From Pseudomonas hamedanensis (lineage in GTDB: Bacteria; Pseudomonadota; Gammaproteobacteria; Pseudomonadales; Pseudomonadaceae), in the NCBI RefSeq assembly GCF_014268595.2, contig NZ_CP077091.1, positions 4,446,001-4,510,000 of the forward strand: a stretch of DNA of 64,000 nt, read 5' to 3'. Below the pieces are notes generated by a model. That model saw nothing but the letters and a program-made list of their open reading frames with translations, did no database searches and was not told the origin of the DNA. Position numbers and translations under genes: made by a program. Positions 7,440 through 30,864 of the stretch are shown in pieces (position 1 is the stretch's first letter; each line of letters opens with the position of its first letter).

Positions 7440-7519
7440 TCGCGCGGCAATCCTGGCTTAATCCTGAGGTGGCAGCGTCGCCCGGGAATTTTCGCTTTCA
7501 ACTCTAACGAGGAGTCGCA

Positions 7520-8335
7520 ATGCTGCCTTACCCGCAGATCGACCCGGTGGCCCTGGCCATCGGTCCGCTGAAAATCCACTGGTACGGTCTGATGTACCTG
7601 ATCGGCATTGGCGGCGCGTGGCTGTTGGCGTCGCGTCGGCTCAACCGCTTCGACCCGACATGGACCAAGGAGAAACTCTCCGATCTGGTGTTCTGGTTGT
7701 CGATGGGCGTGATTGTCGGCGGCCGTCTGGGTTACGTTCTGTTCTATGACCTGAGCGCGTACCTGGCCAACCCGACGCTGATTTTCGAGGTGTGGAAGGG
7801 CGGCATGTCGTTCCATGGCGGTTTCATCGGCGTGATGCTCGCGGCATTGTGGTTCGGCAAGCGCAATGGCAAGTCGTTTTTCCAGCTGATGGACTTCGTT
7901 GCGCCGATGGTGCCGATCGGTCTGGGCGCCGGGCGTATCGGCAATTTCATCAACGCCGAGCTGTGGGGCAAGGCCACCGACGTGCCGTGGGCGATGGTGT
8001 TCCCGCCGTTCAGCGATCCGGCGCAACTGCCGCGTCACCCGTCGCAGCTGTATCAGTTTGCCCTCGAAGGCGTGGCGCTGTTCCTGATCCTCTGGCTGTT
8101 CTCGCGCAAACCGCGCCCGACCATGGCCGTTTCCGGGATGTTCGCGTTGTTCTATGGCATCTTCCGTTTCATCGTCGAGTTCGTTCGCGTGCCGGATGCG
8201 CAGTTGGGTTATCTCGCGTGGAACTGGCTGACCATGGGCCAGGTACTGTGTGTGCCGATGATTGTCGGCGGGCTGTTCCTGATCTGGCTGGCCTATCGTC
8301 GCGCACCGGCAGCGCCGCTCGCCCCGACGGCTTAA
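7520..8335 (+). CDS. lgt: Phosphatidylglycerol-prolipoprotein diacylglyceryl transferase
   Basis: Attaches diacylglycerol to the lipobox cysteine of prolipoproteins at the periplasmic face of the inner membrane, the first step of lipoprotein maturation. The 271-residue protein has about seven membrane helices, the substrate-binding segment [11 protein letters not shown] and the Lgt signature [17 protein letters not shown], with its essential arginine and asparagine. It starts at ATG 7520 after GAGGAGT, and lies upstream of thyA as in most proteobacteria. Confidence 0.97.
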
Positions 8336-8343
8336 ACTACGAA

Positions 8344-8364
8344 CCCCGGCGCGCGACGCCGGGG
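8344..8364 (+). other. GC-rich stem-loop between lgt and thyA
   Basis: A perfect 8-bp stem (CCCCGGCG / CGCCGGGG) with a 5-base loop lies 9 bases after the lgt stop codon and about 20 bases before the thyA start. No U-run follows, so it is unlikely to be a full intrinsic terminator. It may reduce read-through or protect the upstream mRNA. Confidence 0.6.
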
Positions 8365-8385
8365 CTCAAAGGACACAGGTAACTC

Positions 8386-9357
8386 ATGAAGCAATATCTC
8401 GAACTGGTCTCGCACGTCATCCAGAACGGCACCAAACAGGCCAACCGCACCGGCATCAACACCATCAGTTTCCCCGGGGCGATGCTGCGTTTCGATCTGC
8501 AGGAAGGCTTCCCGGCGATCACCACGCGCAAGATGGCCTTCAAATCGGCCATCGGCGAGATGTGCGGCTTTCTGCGTGGCGTGAACAACGCCGCGCAATT
8601 CCGCGCGCTGGGCTGCAAGGTCTGGGACCAGAACGCCAACGAAAACGCGCAATGGCTGGCCAACCCGTTCCGTCAGGGCGACGACGACCTCGGCGAAATC
8701 TACGGCGTGCAATGGCGCAAATGGCCGGCGTACAAGCAGATCCCGCTGAACAACACTGCCGCCATCGAACAAACCTTGAGCATCGGCTACAAGCAGATTG
8801 CCCAAGGCGAAGAAGACGGTCAGGCCTACGTGGTGCTGTACAAAGCCATCGACCAGGTGCGCCAGTGCGTCGACACGATCATCAACGATCCGGGCAGCCG
8901 CCGCATCCTGTTCCACGGCTGGAACTGCGCCCAGCTCGATGAAATGGCCCTGCCGCCGTGCCATCTGCTGTACCAGTTCCACCCGAACGTCGAGACCAAA
9001 GAGATCTCGCTGACCCTGTACATCCGCTCCAACGACCTGGGTCTGGGCACGCCGTTCAACCTCACCGAAGGCGCCGCACTGCTGAGCCTGATCGGTCGCC
9101 TGACCGGCTATACGCCGCGCTGGTTCACCTATTTCATCGGTGATGCCCATGTCTACGAAAACCACTTGGACATGCTCAACGAACAGCTCAAGCGCGAGCC
9201 GTTTGCCATGCCGAAGCTGAAGATCTCTGACCGCGTGCCGGAGTTTGCCAAGACGGGTGTGTATCAGCCGGAGTGGCTGGAGTTGGTCGAGCCGAGCGAT
9301 TTCTCGCTGGAAGGCTATGAGCACCATCCGCCGATGACCGCGCCGATGGCGGTCTAG
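8386..9357 (+). CDS. thyA: Thymidylate synthase
   Basis: Converts dUMP to dTMP with methylenetetrahydrofolate. Catalytic Cys192 lies in [11 protein letters not shown], the arginine pair [11 protein letters not shown] precedes it, and the folate/dUMP region [16 protein letters not shown] follows. At 323 residues it is longer than the 264-residue E. coli enzyme. The extra residues are mainly an insertion between about residues 90 and 150 (including [20 protein letters not shown]), a form seen in several pseudomonads. It is probably cotranscribed with lgt. Confidence 0.96.
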
Positions 9358-27156: not shown

Positions 27157-28389
27157 TTATGGGCGTCTCGGTTGCGCAACGCCCTGGCCGGCCAGGTGTG
27201 TTCGGCGGCGGCTGATCCACTGGTTCAGCAGCAGCGCCACGCCGCTGAGCAGCAGGAAACTGCACGCCAGGGTCGATTGAAGGTTGGTGGGGCTCAGGCT
27301 GATCAGCGCGCTGATCAAACCGCCGCAGATGAAAATGATGATGCTGCCCGCCGAAGCCGAGGTGCCGGCGATGTGTGGAAAAATATCCATGGCCCGCGAG
27401 GTGGCGGCCGGGCGAGCAATGGTGGTGCCGGCGGTACAGATCAGCATGGGAATCAGCACGCTGGTGATGGTCAAGGTGAAAGCCGACGACAGGATCAGCA
27501 TCACCAGCCCTGACAACAGAATCAGACTCAGCCCTGCGACGATTTGCTCCTCGGGGTTCATCCGTCGGCTCAATACCGTGGCGACCAGGCCGCCGACGAC
27601 GTAGGCCGCACCGTAAGCCAGCAGAACCAGCGAGAAGTCATACGGCGCCAGTTGCAGTTGATCCATGAAAATCAGCGGCGATATCACGATGAACGAGAAG
27701 TGGCAGGCGAATGCAAAAGCCGAGATCAGCCAGTAGCCGACAAACTCGCCGTTGCCCAGCACTTTGCGATAAGACTGAATGAAACCCAGCGGCCTGTCCC
27801 GGTGTGTCGGGCGGTCGTTGTGCAGAAACCACCAGGCTTTAAGCCATACCAGCGCCGCCAGCAGCGTGAACAGCCAGAAACTGCCACGCCAGCCGAGGGT
27901 GGCCTGTAAAAAGGTGCCGGCCAGTGGCGAGACCGAGATGAAGATCCCTGTGGCCGTGACCATCAGGATGCGCAGGCGGTCACGTTCCTCGCCTTCGAAC
28001 AGATCCTGGACCAGCGCCTGGGACAGGACGAAGCAACCGCAACCCAGCGCCTGCACCACCCGAAAGATCAGGAACACGGTGTAGTCGCTGGTCACCACGC
28101 AGCCAAGGGCACCGACCATCGAGACCGTCATGCCGGTCAGTAACAAGCCTTTGCGGCCAATGGCGTCGGACAGCGGGCCAATCAGCAACTGGGCGAACGC
28201 GATGCCCAGGGCGAACAGGCTGATGGACAGCGCTATGTCCGCCGGGGTGTGGTGAAAGTGAGCGGCCAGGGCTGGAAAGGAAGGCAGCAGCACATCCAGT
28301 GGAAACACCCCCAGCAAGACCATCGCCAACAAGAGACTGACCGCCCCGCGTTTTTGCCGCGAGGTGACCGCAGAGCTGTTTTCATTCAT
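27157..28389 (-). CDS. MFS exporter (Bcr/CflA-like), last gene of peptide-linked operon
   Basis: A 410-residue inner-membrane drug:proton antiporter-type protein with about twelve helices. The MFS loop 2-3 motif is GPLSDAIGRKGLLLTG (residues 78-93), and motif C is seen in helix 5 (GIFISVSPLAGTFLQ). It resembles the Bcr/CflA multidrug-resistance branch. Its start lies inside the end of the AurF-like gene (8-base overlap), so it belongs to the same transcript as the di-iron oxygenase and SagB-like genes. It plausibly exports the pathway product or gives self-protection. Substrate unknown. Confidence 0.87.
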   Translation of the reverse strand: MNENSSAVTSRQKRGAVSLLLAMVLLGVFPLDVLLPSFPALAAHFHHTPADIALSISLFALGIAFAQLLIGPLSDAIGRKGLLLTGMTVSMVGALGCVVTSDYTVFLIFRVVQALGCGCFVLSQALVQDLFEGEERDRLRILMVTATGIFISVSPLAGTFLQATLGWRGSFWLFTLLAALVWLKAWWFLHNDRPTHRDRPLGFIQSYRKVLGNGEFVGYWLISAFAFACHFSFIVISPLIFMDQLQLAPYDFSLVLLAYGAAYVVGGLVATVLSRRMNPEEQIVAGLSLILLSGLVMLILSSAFTLTITSVLIPMLICTAGTTIARPAATSRAMDIFPHIAGTSASAGSIIIFICGGLISALISLSPTNLQSTLACSFLLLSGVALLLNQWISRRRTHLAGQGVAQPRRP

Positions 28390-29359
28390 CGATCAGTCCC
28401 GCCTTGGCGAAGAGTTTGCAGTTGTTGGGCAAGGCGAAAAAACCGGCCTTTTTCAATGCATCCAGGGTCGCGATGGCGCCGTTTCTGGCGCGCAGGCGTT
28501 TGGCTTCCCGGTGGGTCAGGCTGGCGAGAATCTCCTTGATCGCTTCGTCGGCGATGCCGGCCCCGCGCAGGCTTTGCTGCAACCAGCCTTCGTCGACCTC
28601 GAAGAAAATTCCGAGGATGTCCACCAGCGCCCGGGCCGCAAATGTGCGCCGCCGGGCGTTCAGGGTCAGCCACAGGTAATGGAACACTTCGCTGAAATAG
28701 CGGCTGTGCCGCGCCTCGTCGGTCAGGTGGTCGCGCAGCATGTCGCTGACGCTGGACACCAGACTGTCCCGGCACACATCCAGCAATTCCCGGGCGATGA
28801 TGGTTTCCGAGACAAAGCCCAGCAGAAACCAGGCCAGCGGGCGATGGCTTTCGGGCGTGCGGGCGATCAGGGCGTTGAGTCGGGTGATCCGCAACGGCAT
28901 GACTGGTCGCCCGGTGAAACCGTAAAAACCGGCAATCCGTTCGGCAAGACGATTGGAGAAAAGTGCGTGGTAGCCCTCGTCGGTGTACAGCTGCAGGGCG
29001 GCGGTTTTCATTTGCGCCGGAACGAACATTGGCAGTTCTTCGTGAACGATGACTTCGACGGCACGATTGACGATGCGGTGTTCGAGCAGCGTCGTGTAAT
29101 CGAGAAAATGCACCAGATGATTGGCGCACAGGCGATGCGCCACTGCGCTGCCGGCGGCGACGACGGCCGGATGGGCCAGATAGGGCAGGAACGCTGGCGG
29201 AAACCAGAACCGTGCTTGCAGTTGTTCCTGCAGGTCGTCCGGCAACTGGTAGTCGTGTTGGCTGTTACGCACCGAGGCGCGACGGTCCCAGTCACCCAAA
29301 GTGAATCGCAGGGCCCAGGAAACAGGCGGCGTATCCTGAGCGTCGGTGAGTGTGCTCAT
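28382..29359 (-). CDS. AurF-like di-iron N-oxygenase
   Basis: A 325-residue ferritin-like non-haem di-iron enzyme. All seven metal ligands of the AurF (p-aminobenzoate N-oxygenase) fold can be placed with near-identical spacing: Glu93 (LLEH), Glu128 and His131 (TDEGYH), Glu185 (SETI), His211, Glu215 and His218 (DHLTDEARH). AurF enzymes oxidise amines to hydroxylamine, nitroso or nitro groups; related family members hydroxylate carbon. Neighbours are a SagB-like flavin dehydrogenase (4-base ATGA overlap upstream) and an MFS exporter (8-base overlap downstream). No synthetase gene is nearby, so the substrate may be the small peptide encoded first in the operon. That last step is inference. Confidence 0.88.
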   Translation of the reverse strand: MSTLTDAQDTPPVSWALRFTLGDWDRRASVRNSQHDYQLPDDLQEQLQARFWFPPAFLPYLAHPAVVAAGSAVAHRLCANHLVHFLDYTTLLEHRIVNRAVEVIVHEELPMFVPAQMKTAALQLYTDEGYHALFSNRLAERIAGFYGFTGRPVMPLRITRLNALIARTPESHRPLAWFLLGFVSETIIARELLDVCRDSLVSSVSDMLRDHLTDEARHSRYFSEVFHYLWLTLNARRRTFAARALVDILGIFFEVDEGWLQQSLRGAGIADEAIKEILASLTHREAKRLRARNGAIATLDALKKAGFFALPNNCKLFAKAGLIDE

Positions 29360-30438
29360 GGTTGCGACTCACAGGGCTGTCGCTGCAACAACTCGCGCAT
29401 TTCCAGGCACATCGCTTCGCCGTCGCTTTCGCCGCAGCCGACAAAAAACAAGGGCTGTTCTGCGCGGCCGGCAACCTTCAGCAACGCCTCGACCTGCGCG
29501 TCGGCGAAAGCCCCTGTCAGCCAGGTGCCGAGGCCGAGCGCCGTGGCGACCATCTGCAGGGTTTGTGAAAGGTGGCCGGCCTCGACGAAGGCCATTCGAT
29601 AGGCGCGCGAATGTTGGTATTTCCACCATAGCTTGTCGAATCGGGCGGTGATGAACAGCCCCAGCGGCAGGTTATTGATGAAATGCTGCCCACCCAGCAA
29701 CAGGCCGAGCGGAGACTGCAGCGAAGGGCTCACCGCTGTCAGAACATGCCTGTCGGGGTGGTAAGCGTAAACCCCCGGCTCCAGGCCATCGACATGCTGG
29801 GCGAGGACAAAGCATTCGCAGGCGTTCAAGCCGCCGCCTGAAGGACTGCTGCGTCGTGCTTCGAGGCCTTCGGCGATGCCGTCGCCGGAAGGATCGCGCT
29901 CACGCAGATAGCCGAAAGACCAATACAGCAGGGTGCTGGCATCGACGAGTGAAACGGCGCGACCCGTGAATGAGCGACAGGTTTTCCGTCGGGTCAGCAC
30001 GTCGGTCAGGCTGTCAGGGTCCGGGATGGCGGGTGTGGGGAGGGCGATGGTTTCACCCAAGGGGTTGGGCAGGCGAGCGGTATCAGGCGCAGGGCTGGCC
30101 AGCACGTCGTTGCAGTGTTGGAGGTATTGCCTGGCCCATTCATCGATCGTTTGCGGGTTTTTTTGGCTGGGGATGTTTTGTGTACCGATATGAAAGATTC
30201 TCGACAGTTCATCCCAGCCCCATGGCGGAGTATCCGTCTTTTGCGAAGTTAATATGCCGGCATCCAGTAGTTGCAGATCTATGTTGTTCTGTTCGTCGAA
30301 CAGGTCGGGGTTGTTGATGAGTTCGCCGAGGCGTGACGAATGTTCCAGATCCAGCTCGTACTGAACATGGTCTTTATAGTTCCAGACGATTTGGGCAGGC
30401 GTGCGCGGTAATATAAATAAATAAGGATTGACGTGCAT
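29356..30438 (-). CDS. SagB-like FMN-dependent peptide-maturation dehydrogenase (nitroreductase fold)
   Basis: A 360-residue flavoprotein. Residues from about 140 on form a nitroreductase fold with FMN-binding TRRKTCRSFTG (149-159), the SagB-type motif RRSSPSGGGLNACECF (195-210) and the C-terminal helix and loop ALGLGTWLTGAF. The first 130 residues are a separate N-terminal domain containing IDLQLLDAGIL, a pattern I associate with small winged-helix peptide-binding modules of RiPP enzymes (weak inference). SagB proteins oxidise azolines to azoles in thiazole/oxazole peptides, but no SagC/SagD cyclodehydratase is present. The ribosome site is weak, unlike that of the peptide gene 71 bases upstream. 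Confidence 0.84.
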   Translation of the reverse strand: MHVNPYLFILPRTPAQIVWNYKDHVQYELDLEHSSRLGELINNPDLFDEQNNIDLQLLDAGILTSQKTDTPPWGWDELSRIFHIGTQNIPSQKNPQTIDEWARQYLQHCNDVLASPAPDTARLPNPLGETIALPTPAIPDPDSLTDVLTRRKTCRSFTGRAVSLVDASTLLYWSFGYLRERDPSGDGIAEGLEARRSSPSGGGLNACECFVLAQHVDGLEPGVYAYHPDRHVLTAVSPSLQSPLGLLLGGQHFINNLPLGLFITARFDKLWWKYQHSRAYRMAFVEAGHLSQTLQMVATALGLGTWLTGAFADAQVEALLKVAGRAEQPLFFVGCGESDGEAMCLEMRELLQRQPCESQP

Positions 30439-30468
30439 GTTGGAGAGTCACTCTGGTTGAATGTCTTG

Positions 30469-30502
30469 TAGACGCCGGATTGCCGGCACTCTCCGGCGTC
30501 TA
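30469..30502 (-). other. Stem-loop between peptide gene and SagB-like gene
   Basis: A perfect 10-bp stem (TAGACGCCGG at 30469-30478, CCGGCGTCTA at 30493-30502) encloses a 14-base loop. It begins seven bases after the peptide stop codon in the direction of transcription. No U-run follows, so it is probably a partial terminator or an RNA-stabilising barrier that would leave more peptide than enzyme mRNA. Confidence 0.75.
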
Positions 30503-30509
30503 GACGTGC

Positions 30510-30581
30510 TTAGCGGGCTTTAGGCGCTACCAGAAATGCCAGGTTTGCGATTTTGTTGCTTTCCATAGAAATAACTTTCAT
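30510..30581 (-). CDS. 23-residue candidate precursor peptide
   Basis: A complete small gene: ATG at 30579-30581 on the minus strand, a perfect AAGGAG eight bases upstream and TAA at 30510-30512. The product reads MKVISMESNKIANL followed by AFLVAPKAR: a polar, basic head, a short hydrophobic stretch and a basic tail. It has no Cys, Thr or Tyr, and its only Ser residues are at positions 5 and 8. A strong promoter precedes it and the SagB-like, AurF-like and MFS genes follow on the same strand. Its size is like PqqA, but the Glu/Tyr pair of PqqA is absent. It is likely the substrate of the operon's enzymes; a regulatory leader peptide is the main alternative. Confidence 0.7.
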   Translation of the reverse strand: MKVISMESNKIANLAFLVAPKAR

Positions 30582-30613
30582 AGCATGAACTCCTTGTTCG
30601 TTTGATAGTTGAA

Positions 30614-30629
30614 GTCGCCTCGTGGCGAC
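30614..30629 (-). other. Small hairpin in the 5' leader of the peptide gene
   Basis: A GTCGCC / GGCGAC stem with a TCGT loop would lie at the very 5' end of the transcript started from the promoter at 30636-30663. Hairpins in this position can stabilise mRNA. Confidence 0.55.
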
Positions 30630-30635
30630 AACTCA

Positions 30636-30663
30636 ATAATAGTTTGTAATGGAATATTGGCAA
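30636..30663 (-). promoter_or_regulatory. Predicted sigma-70 promoter of the peptide operon
   Basis: Read on the minus strand, TTGCCA (30658-30663) and TATTAT (30636-30641) are each one base from consensus and are 16 bp apart. Transcription would start near 30628, about 47 bases before the peptide start codon. Confidence 0.65.
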
Positions 30664-30688
30664 GCGGATATTAAGTAGGAATATTCCA
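30650..30688. promoter_or_regulatory. Inverted TGGAATATT repeat overlapping the promoter
   Basis: TGGAATATT (30650-30658) and AATATTCCA (30680-30688) form a 9-bp inverted repeat. The right copy is part of the perfect palindrome GGAATATTCC. The pair brackets the -35 element, a layout that suits a repressor or activator site. No regulator gene is adjacent. Confidence 0.55.
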
Positions 30689-30820
30689 ACGATTTTGTCG
30701 GACTTGTCGTGCGTCGAGCGTTAACTTGTAGGATAAGTTTGAATAATTAATTATGCAGGGAAATTTCCTGCGTTCCGGTGGGAAACTAATGTAGGAAGTT
30801 GCCAGTTGGGAGGGGCGCGC

Positions 30821-30847
30821 AAAAAAAAGGGGAGCCGCTGGCTCCCC
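30821..30847 (-). terminator. Intrinsic terminator of rlmI
   Basis: A perfect 8-bp GGGGAGCC / GGCTCCCC stem with a 3-base loop is followed by eight U residues on the minus strand. It isolates rlmI from the peptide operon downstream. Confidence 0.93.
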
Positions 30848-30864
30848 GTTCAATCGCGTGTCAA

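Follow-up and report, generated by a model that had tools for sequence, protein, structure and literature searches.

A candidate family of very small ribosomal peptide pathways with a SagB-like dehydrogenase and an AurF-like oxygenase in Pseudomonas

Organization of the locus

We analyzed a compact operon in a 64,000-nucleotide stretch of the Pseudomonas hamedanensis genome (NCBI RefSeq assembly GCF_014268595.2, contig NZ_CP077091.1, positions 4,446,001 to 4,510,000; hereinafter, the window, the numbering of which is used for the features below). The interval between ilvD and rlmI holds four genes, all on the minus strand: a 23-codon gene for the peptide MKVISMESNKIANLAFLVAPKAR (30510..30581), followed by genes for a SagB-like dehydrogenase of the flavin mononucleotide (FMN) type (sag; 29356..30438), an AurF-like diiron oxygenase (aur; 28382..29359) and a Bcr/CflA-type exporter of the major facilitator superfamily (MFS; mfs; 27157..28389). 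All four genes described in the original prediction, which was made from the window sequence, are present, and the 4-base and 8-base overlaps that it reported among the enzyme and exporter genes are correct by the coordinates. The strong ribosome-binding site attributed to the tiny first gene was borne out as well: a Shine-Dalgarno motif read in the sequence, AAGGAG (30590..30595, minus strand), lies 8 bases before the peptide ATG, and AGGAG or a similar sequence stands ahead of the peptide gene in the related loci of our first motif-free survey of open reading frames (ORFs). The span proposed for the operon, 27157..30688, holds for the gene content, although its end coordinate takes in untranslated leader. 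A sigma-70-like promoter (TTGCCA-16-TATTAT; 30636..30663, minus strand) is located downstream of a terminator-like hairpin of rlmI (30829-30847), both sites being pattern matches only, so that the operon could be a transcription unit of its own.

Conservation of the peptide gene

Family searches of the operon proteins yielded no match for the 23-residue peptide. When short ORFs upstream of sag were listed without any sequence motif, the peptide was present in 41 of 41 loci; a second motif-free listing contained it in 23 of 24 and missed L071, whose peptide appeared in a later motif search. In all, the small gene was found in each of the 121 aur rows where the start of sag could be located, 120 times by motif and once, in L141, by eye and outside the motif (this peptide begins with MIAINLESKALANWTQ). 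Because some loci were taken twice, these rows amount to 91 distinct upstream DNA stretches; aur loci L068, L078 and L080, where sag is missing or too broken for its start to be placed, do not enter these peptide counts. Thus, a homologous operon lacking the conserved short ORF, which the original prediction had named as evidence that would count against it, was not encountered among the testable aur rows.

In aur loci, the peptide gene lies 123-163 bases upstream of sag and encodes 21-26 amino acids (aa), with the consensus MKaItLEtnkIANLaFLVapKaR. Among 64 distinct motif-matched aur peptides, Asn13 is found in 64, Ala12 in 63 (with one Glu), Glu7 in 63 and Lys2 in 62, the sole exception at position 7 being a Gln in L071, whose sag is interrupted. 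As the search motif fixes positions 1, 2, 4, 6 and 7 and leaves positions 8 onward free, the counts at the fixed positions partly reflect how the peptides were chosen. The peptide gene is under protein-level selection. Differences among 85 distinct sequences are mainly silent, with a ratio of nonsynonymous to synonymous differences (pN/pS, from uncorrected proportions) of 0.42 across codons 1-21. By segment, the ratio is lowest at codons 11-14, which encode IANL (0.073/0.412 = 0.18), and is 0.44 (0.161/0.362) for codons 1-7; the tail (codons 15-21) is moderately held (0.236/0.632 = 0.37) and the spacer of codons 8-10 is nearly free (0.419/0.531 = 0.79). A degenerate KIANLAFLVA pattern occurs once in the genome.

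Copies with an interrupted aur (L011 and L080) or an interrupted sag (L015, L021, L049, L066 and L071, among others) mostly lie beside a still readable peptide gene, as if the operon were often lost; sequencing error is possible.

Distribution of the operon

Of 298 Pseudomonas genomes, 83, among them that of the window, gave an AurF-like match of at least 140 bits, and the next genome scored 60.5 bits; a few of the 83 matches are fragments or contain stops. In the loci read, the gene order is sag, aur, mfs, and the 4- and 8-base overlaps are usually kept. All eleven named loci found belong to Pseudomonas, as do all named organisms in the best 120 rows of each of three protein-database searches, in which the remaining rows come from unnamed metagenomes. 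The peptide and the three larger genes are co-conserved down to about 34% AurF identity; in L081, AurF is only 26% identical and sag is absent. The recurring order of the trio, the recurrence of the peptide upstream of sag and the low pN/pS argue that the operon is not a chance assembly. A conserved candidate precursor gene is thus adjacent to a gene for a modifying-type enzyme, and the peptide itself would be what is modified.

Among loci of at least 6,500 bases with a placed sag start, both ilvD and rlmI flank 41 aur loci and 7 non-aur loci, and neither gene is within the available stretch in 12 aur and 12 non-aur loci; two loci have a single flank (ilvD only in L051, rlmI only in L164). Outside Pseudomonas, profile A1 at E 1e-30 matched 5 genomes among 369 drawn from the class, all with part of the profile and at 146.7 bits or less. 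Among 244 genomes from the order, it matched three of other families (G730, G848 and G817), and the 14-kb stretches read in these three contained no aur match. Profile A4 at E 1e-20 matched 23 of 398 genomes from the phylum, the own genus included; the peptide was not found in L128 of G933, the one locus read among these matches.

Family assignment of the enzymes and the exporter

The dehydrogenase (360 aa) matches PF00881 (63.3 bits, cut-off 23.5) and TIGR03605 (117.9 bits, cut-off 78.4), and its Lys273-Tyr274 pair is present in 68 of 68 aligned rows, which places it in the SagB family. Its best-scoring model is TIGR04511 (SagB-related peptide maturation dehydrogenases), yet the score of 159.4 bits is below the 240-bit cut-off. 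With the azoline oxidases SagB, McbC, ThcOx and BmdC, the protein shares the fold, the Lys-Tyr pair and the TIGR03605 score above the curated cut-off; unlike theirs, its operon carries no linked cyclodehydratase and its peptide no conserved heterocyclizable residue. The predicted structure (predicted local distance difference test (pLDDT) 79.4) has a nitroreductase domain and, N-terminal to it, a part with three strands and two helices, and its best structural matches include ThcOx, BmdC and McbC. In this whole-protein model, about residues 1-70 may form a domain resembling a peptide clamp, and the N-terminal region appears to align with ThcOx and BmdC. The alignment with ThcOx runs from ThcOx residue 117 on, at a loose whole-length root-mean-square deviation (rmsd) of 13 A; the second peptide-clamp domain of ThcOx is given as residues 87-194 in the available part of its description (PMC5108345), so that the alignment starts within that domain. 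Searched against Pfam, residues 1-70 of 11 dehydrogenases gave no credible match.

The AurF-like protein matches PF11583 (73.2 bits, cut-off 29.6). Seven residues, E93, E128, H131, E185, H211, E215 and H218, are invariant in 76 of 76 full-length rows and coincide, in the alignment to 3chh, with what we take to be the iron-ligand positions of AurF. The Pfam match and these positions identify an AurF-like diiron oxygenase. Its predicted structure (pLDDT 90.5) matches those of AurF and CmlI, with TM scores by query length of 0.77 to 2jcd_B and 0.72 to 5hyh. Thus, the fold and the seven ligand positions are shared with the AurF and CmlI arylamine N-oxygenases; unlike in these, the gene has neighbors that encode a short peptide and a SagB-like protein, and the score against the 4-aminobenzoate N-oxygenase model NF045603 is 65.2 bits versus a cut-off of 620. 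The MFS protein scores 205.3 bits against the Bcr/CflA model TIGR00710 (cut-off 200.9).

Related loci with other enzyme content

With a threshold of E 1e-55, a sag profile had matches in 113 of 398 Pseudomonas genomes, and 20 sag loci from these genomes, chosen to include ones without aur, were taken together with G233. Some members of each group were assigned by Pfam and the remainder by the resemblance of their starts. Seven loci at the ilvD-rlmI site (L129, L161, L162, L159, L160, L171 and L172) carry the peptide gene, sag and, after it, a related MFS gene, with no aur match; their peptides include MKTVILESKELAAFSLIGMPK in L129 and MKKVQLEKNLAVHHHAMLSTPK in L159. In a third group (L165, L166 and L170), sag is accompanied by carbamoyltransferase and MFS genes and by peptides such as MKRVTIEPTLNNQSNDAYQTPHFS..., and in a fourth (L167-L169), by TPR-methyltransferase and carbamoyltransferase genes and peptides such as MRKINLQTRLTALSNNAYNTLITP... 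Among more distant relatives, sag is found in L093 with a LysE-type exporter gene, and the precursor there contains two tandem units, MKKVEVEMKKFCALMPVMKKSNVETKKFCALMPVMQKK; the L094 peptide is MKRVYIEDTAPYALGVAVAVYTTC, and a Maritalea plasmid carries sag with an MFS gene. Since the second enzyme is exchanged among related loci, the constant parts are the start of the peptide (MKxIxLE) and the dehydrogenase. A motif peptide was not obtained in 12 of 31 non-aur rows (L091 and L095, which are one site; L105 and L128, also one site; L110; L114-L117; L120; L125; and L126). The candidate peptide of L126, which has no aur, fits the start motif in part and is uncertain.

Several further observations were made on these loci. 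The peptides of the six carbamoyltransferase loci L165, L166, L170 and L167-L169 share SN(D/N)AY; these loci would be sister pathways. A locus of this type, L127, is present on a contig from faeces that was submitted under the name 'Bacteriophage sp.' (MT837218.1) and is probably bacterial DNA; its peptide is identical to that of the Pseudomonas locus L166. Two loci per genome occur in G053, both of the aur type, and in G235, one of the aur and one of the carbamoyltransferase type. In L095, from G817, a Pseudomonadales genome of another family, a SagB-like gene (7458-8567, minus strand) directly follows a gene (8586-9320, minus strand) for a 244-residue protein with 19 tandem PASPFM units near its end, perhaps a many-core precursor.

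Peptide positions 13 and 14

All 65 distinct peptides from aur loci have Asn13, including that of L164, in which Ala12 is changed to Glu, compared with 0 of 16 non-aur peptides (15 of 15 distinct motif-matched peptides lack it, as does the uncertain L126 candidate). Mapped onto the SagB tree, the presence or absence of aur requires 2 changes, and a single clade of aur loci is not rejected (p-AU 0.113). The association of Asn13 with AurF is therefore suggestive and not independent statistical proof; treated as a statistically independent association, it was rejected, the starred branches of the tree offering one independent pair. At residue 14, all 70 distinct peptides counted have Leu, Phe, Trp, Met or His, and none has a beta-branched residue; L126 and 7 loci of the carbamoyltransferase group (Ser14) are outside this count. 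Unlike position 14, the hydrophobic positions 4, 11, 17 and 18 do carry Ile or Val.

A conserved hairpin between the peptide gene and sag

An RNA hairpin with GCCGGC in its loop lies between the peptide gene and sag (30470..30501, minus strand) and ends about 30 bases ahead of the sag start. Its folding z-score is -4.04 in the window; across distinct intergenic regions, the mean is -2.86, with values below -1.5 in 80 of 89 (50 mononucleotide shuffles each). In 23 hand-picked aur-locus sequences, two-sided changes affect 9 of 10 stem pairs, and the covariation score was reached by 0 of 500 shuffles, slid alignments scoring well below; a control counting further pair types was weaker, with 39 of 500 shuffles as high. 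As the 23 chosen sequences all have GCCGGC, the invariance of the loop in this alignment is by choice; of the 120 aur rows, among which duplicates are counted, 96 have TGCCGGC. Rfam gave one match in 30380-30860 of the window, at E 2.9 and far below the gathering score, and none that is credible. The hairpin probably separates plentiful expression of the precursor from expression of the enzymes.

Proposed pathway and alternatives

We suggest that the operon probably encodes a minimal pathway of the ribosomally synthesized and post-translationally modified peptide (RiPP) type, in which the dehydrogenase would desaturate residue 14 and the AurF-like enzyme would oxidize Asn13. The MKxIxLE start would act as a mini-leader gripped by the clamp-like N-terminal domain of the dehydrogenase, which, without a cyclodehydratase, would take two hydrogens across an alpha-beta bond within IANL, most likely at residue 14 (Leu in the window). 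The diiron enzyme would place oxygen on the side-chain amide, the neighboring backbone nitrogen or the beta carbon of Asn13, trimming would fall to general proteases, and export of the product to the MFS protein; the hairpin would keep peptide expression above enzyme expression. Residue 14 is proposed because it is never beta-branched and because PflD offers a dehydrophenylalanine precedent (see below). The self-contained pathway acting on a ribosomal peptide that the original prediction put forward gains support from the short ORF in every testable aur row and from the change of the peptide with enzyme content, and further from the tandem-repeat precursor of L093 and the apparent alignment with the ThcOx clamp region.

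Several points weigh against this interpretation. To our knowledge, AurF enzymes act on arylamines, not amides. The chemistry, the product and its export are predicted here from sequence, and the operon contains no protease gene. The link of Asn13 with AurF may reflect one or two evolutionary events, the recurrence of Leu14 is mostly shared ancestry, and in the carbamoyltransferase group position 14 is Ser, with an Ala-Tyr pair at positions 17-18 instead. Furthermore, the dehydrogenase model is moderately confident, its whole-length fit to ThcOx is loose, its parts outside residues 126-342 were barely tested by structure comparison, and in ThcOx the binding site of the second clamp is buried, according to the available part of PMC5108345.

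The same genes allow other explanations. The peptide might be a scaffold from which one or two modified residues, for instance Asn13-Leu14, are excised and exported by the MFS protein as a small molecule. Pyrroloquinoline quinone is a precedent for a small molecule cut from a peptide, the exporter belongs to a multidrug-efflux subfamily, selection holds IANL much more tightly than the codons on either side, and no dedicated protease is encoded in the operon; yet selection also acts on the tail at 15-21, which would not be required of a segment that is thrown away, and we consider this explanation rather unlikely. That translation of the ORF controls the enzyme genes through the downstream hairpin, the enzymes acting on an unrelated small molecule, would account for a conserved, covarying hairpin at this place. 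However, the peptide varies with enzyme content, the L093 precursor is a tandem repeat, the dehydrogenase model carries a putative clamp-like domain, the ORF contains no stretch that encodes a single repeated amino acid, and the hairpin ends about 30 bases short of sag, all of which make a regulatory leader improbable.

The azole chemistry that the original prediction associated with SagB does not fit the locus. An azole or azoline peptide (a thiazole/oxazole-modified microcin) made with a cyclodehydratase encoded elsewhere would be consistent with the SagB family membership and the Lys-Tyr pair, with the one YcaO gene in the genome and with Ser, Thr or Cys at positions 5 (54%) and 8 (65%). 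Nevertheless, these residues reach at most 18% at every position from 9 to 21 in 65 distinct peptides, with none invariant anywhere, and the sole PF02624 (YcaO) match lies at 0.49 Mb of the 6.05-Mb contig, far from the operon at 4.48 Mb. With no conserved Cys, Ser or Thr in the C-terminal half and no linked YcaO gene in the genome of the window, azoles are very improbable.

Relation to known systems and implications

A literature search, among the matches listed and mainly in open papers, returned no pathway that joins SagB and AurF to a precursor peptide, in line with the original prediction, which knew of no described pathway with exactly this set. One of the closest likenesses is to the pfl/pos clusters of Pseudomonas, of which the available parts of two reports give an outline. 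There, the nitroreductase domain of PflD, a fusion with an MNIO enzyme, converts Phe to Z-dehydroPhe in a RiPP without YcaO, a change of -2 Da (PMC12636437); shared features are the YcaO-free nitroreductase-family domain, the ribosomal peptide and the paired iron oxygenase. The pfl/pos clusters differ in having HEXXH and MNIO enzymes, a fused protein of 650 aa and, in the Os17 pos cluster described in PMC7726476, a precursor of 85 aa, whereas the operon described here, a different system, has peptides of 21-26 aa (in aur loci), a 360-aa dehydrogenase and an AurF-like enzyme. The authors of PMC12636437 state, in the text available, that nitroreductases in YcaO-less RiPP clusters are rare and functionally uncharacterized, and they suggest that others may make other dehydroamino acids. 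To this question, the locus contributes a 23-residue candidate substrate and two enzymes, a set small enough for quick co-expression tests.

The best and, in our judgment, a likely reading is that these loci form a new RiPP family with very small pathways. More tentatively, they might form a modular micro-RiPP class, with precursors about 21-26 residues long, some branches having longer ones, a seven-residue leader, a constant clamp-bearing residue-14 desaturase and tailoring by interchangeable enzymes (AurF-like, carbamoyltransferase or TPR-methyltransferase) or by no further enzyme. If the proposed pathway is correct, its AurF version would set an N-oxygenated or hydroxylated asparagine beside a dehydro-residue, chemistry that we did not encounter in the literature searched, parts of which were available as excerpts. 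It would also add to the widespread genus Pseudomonas a family of very short ribosomal precursors and an AurF-type enzyme acting on a peptide, with many natural variants that pair a different second enzyme with a different peptide.

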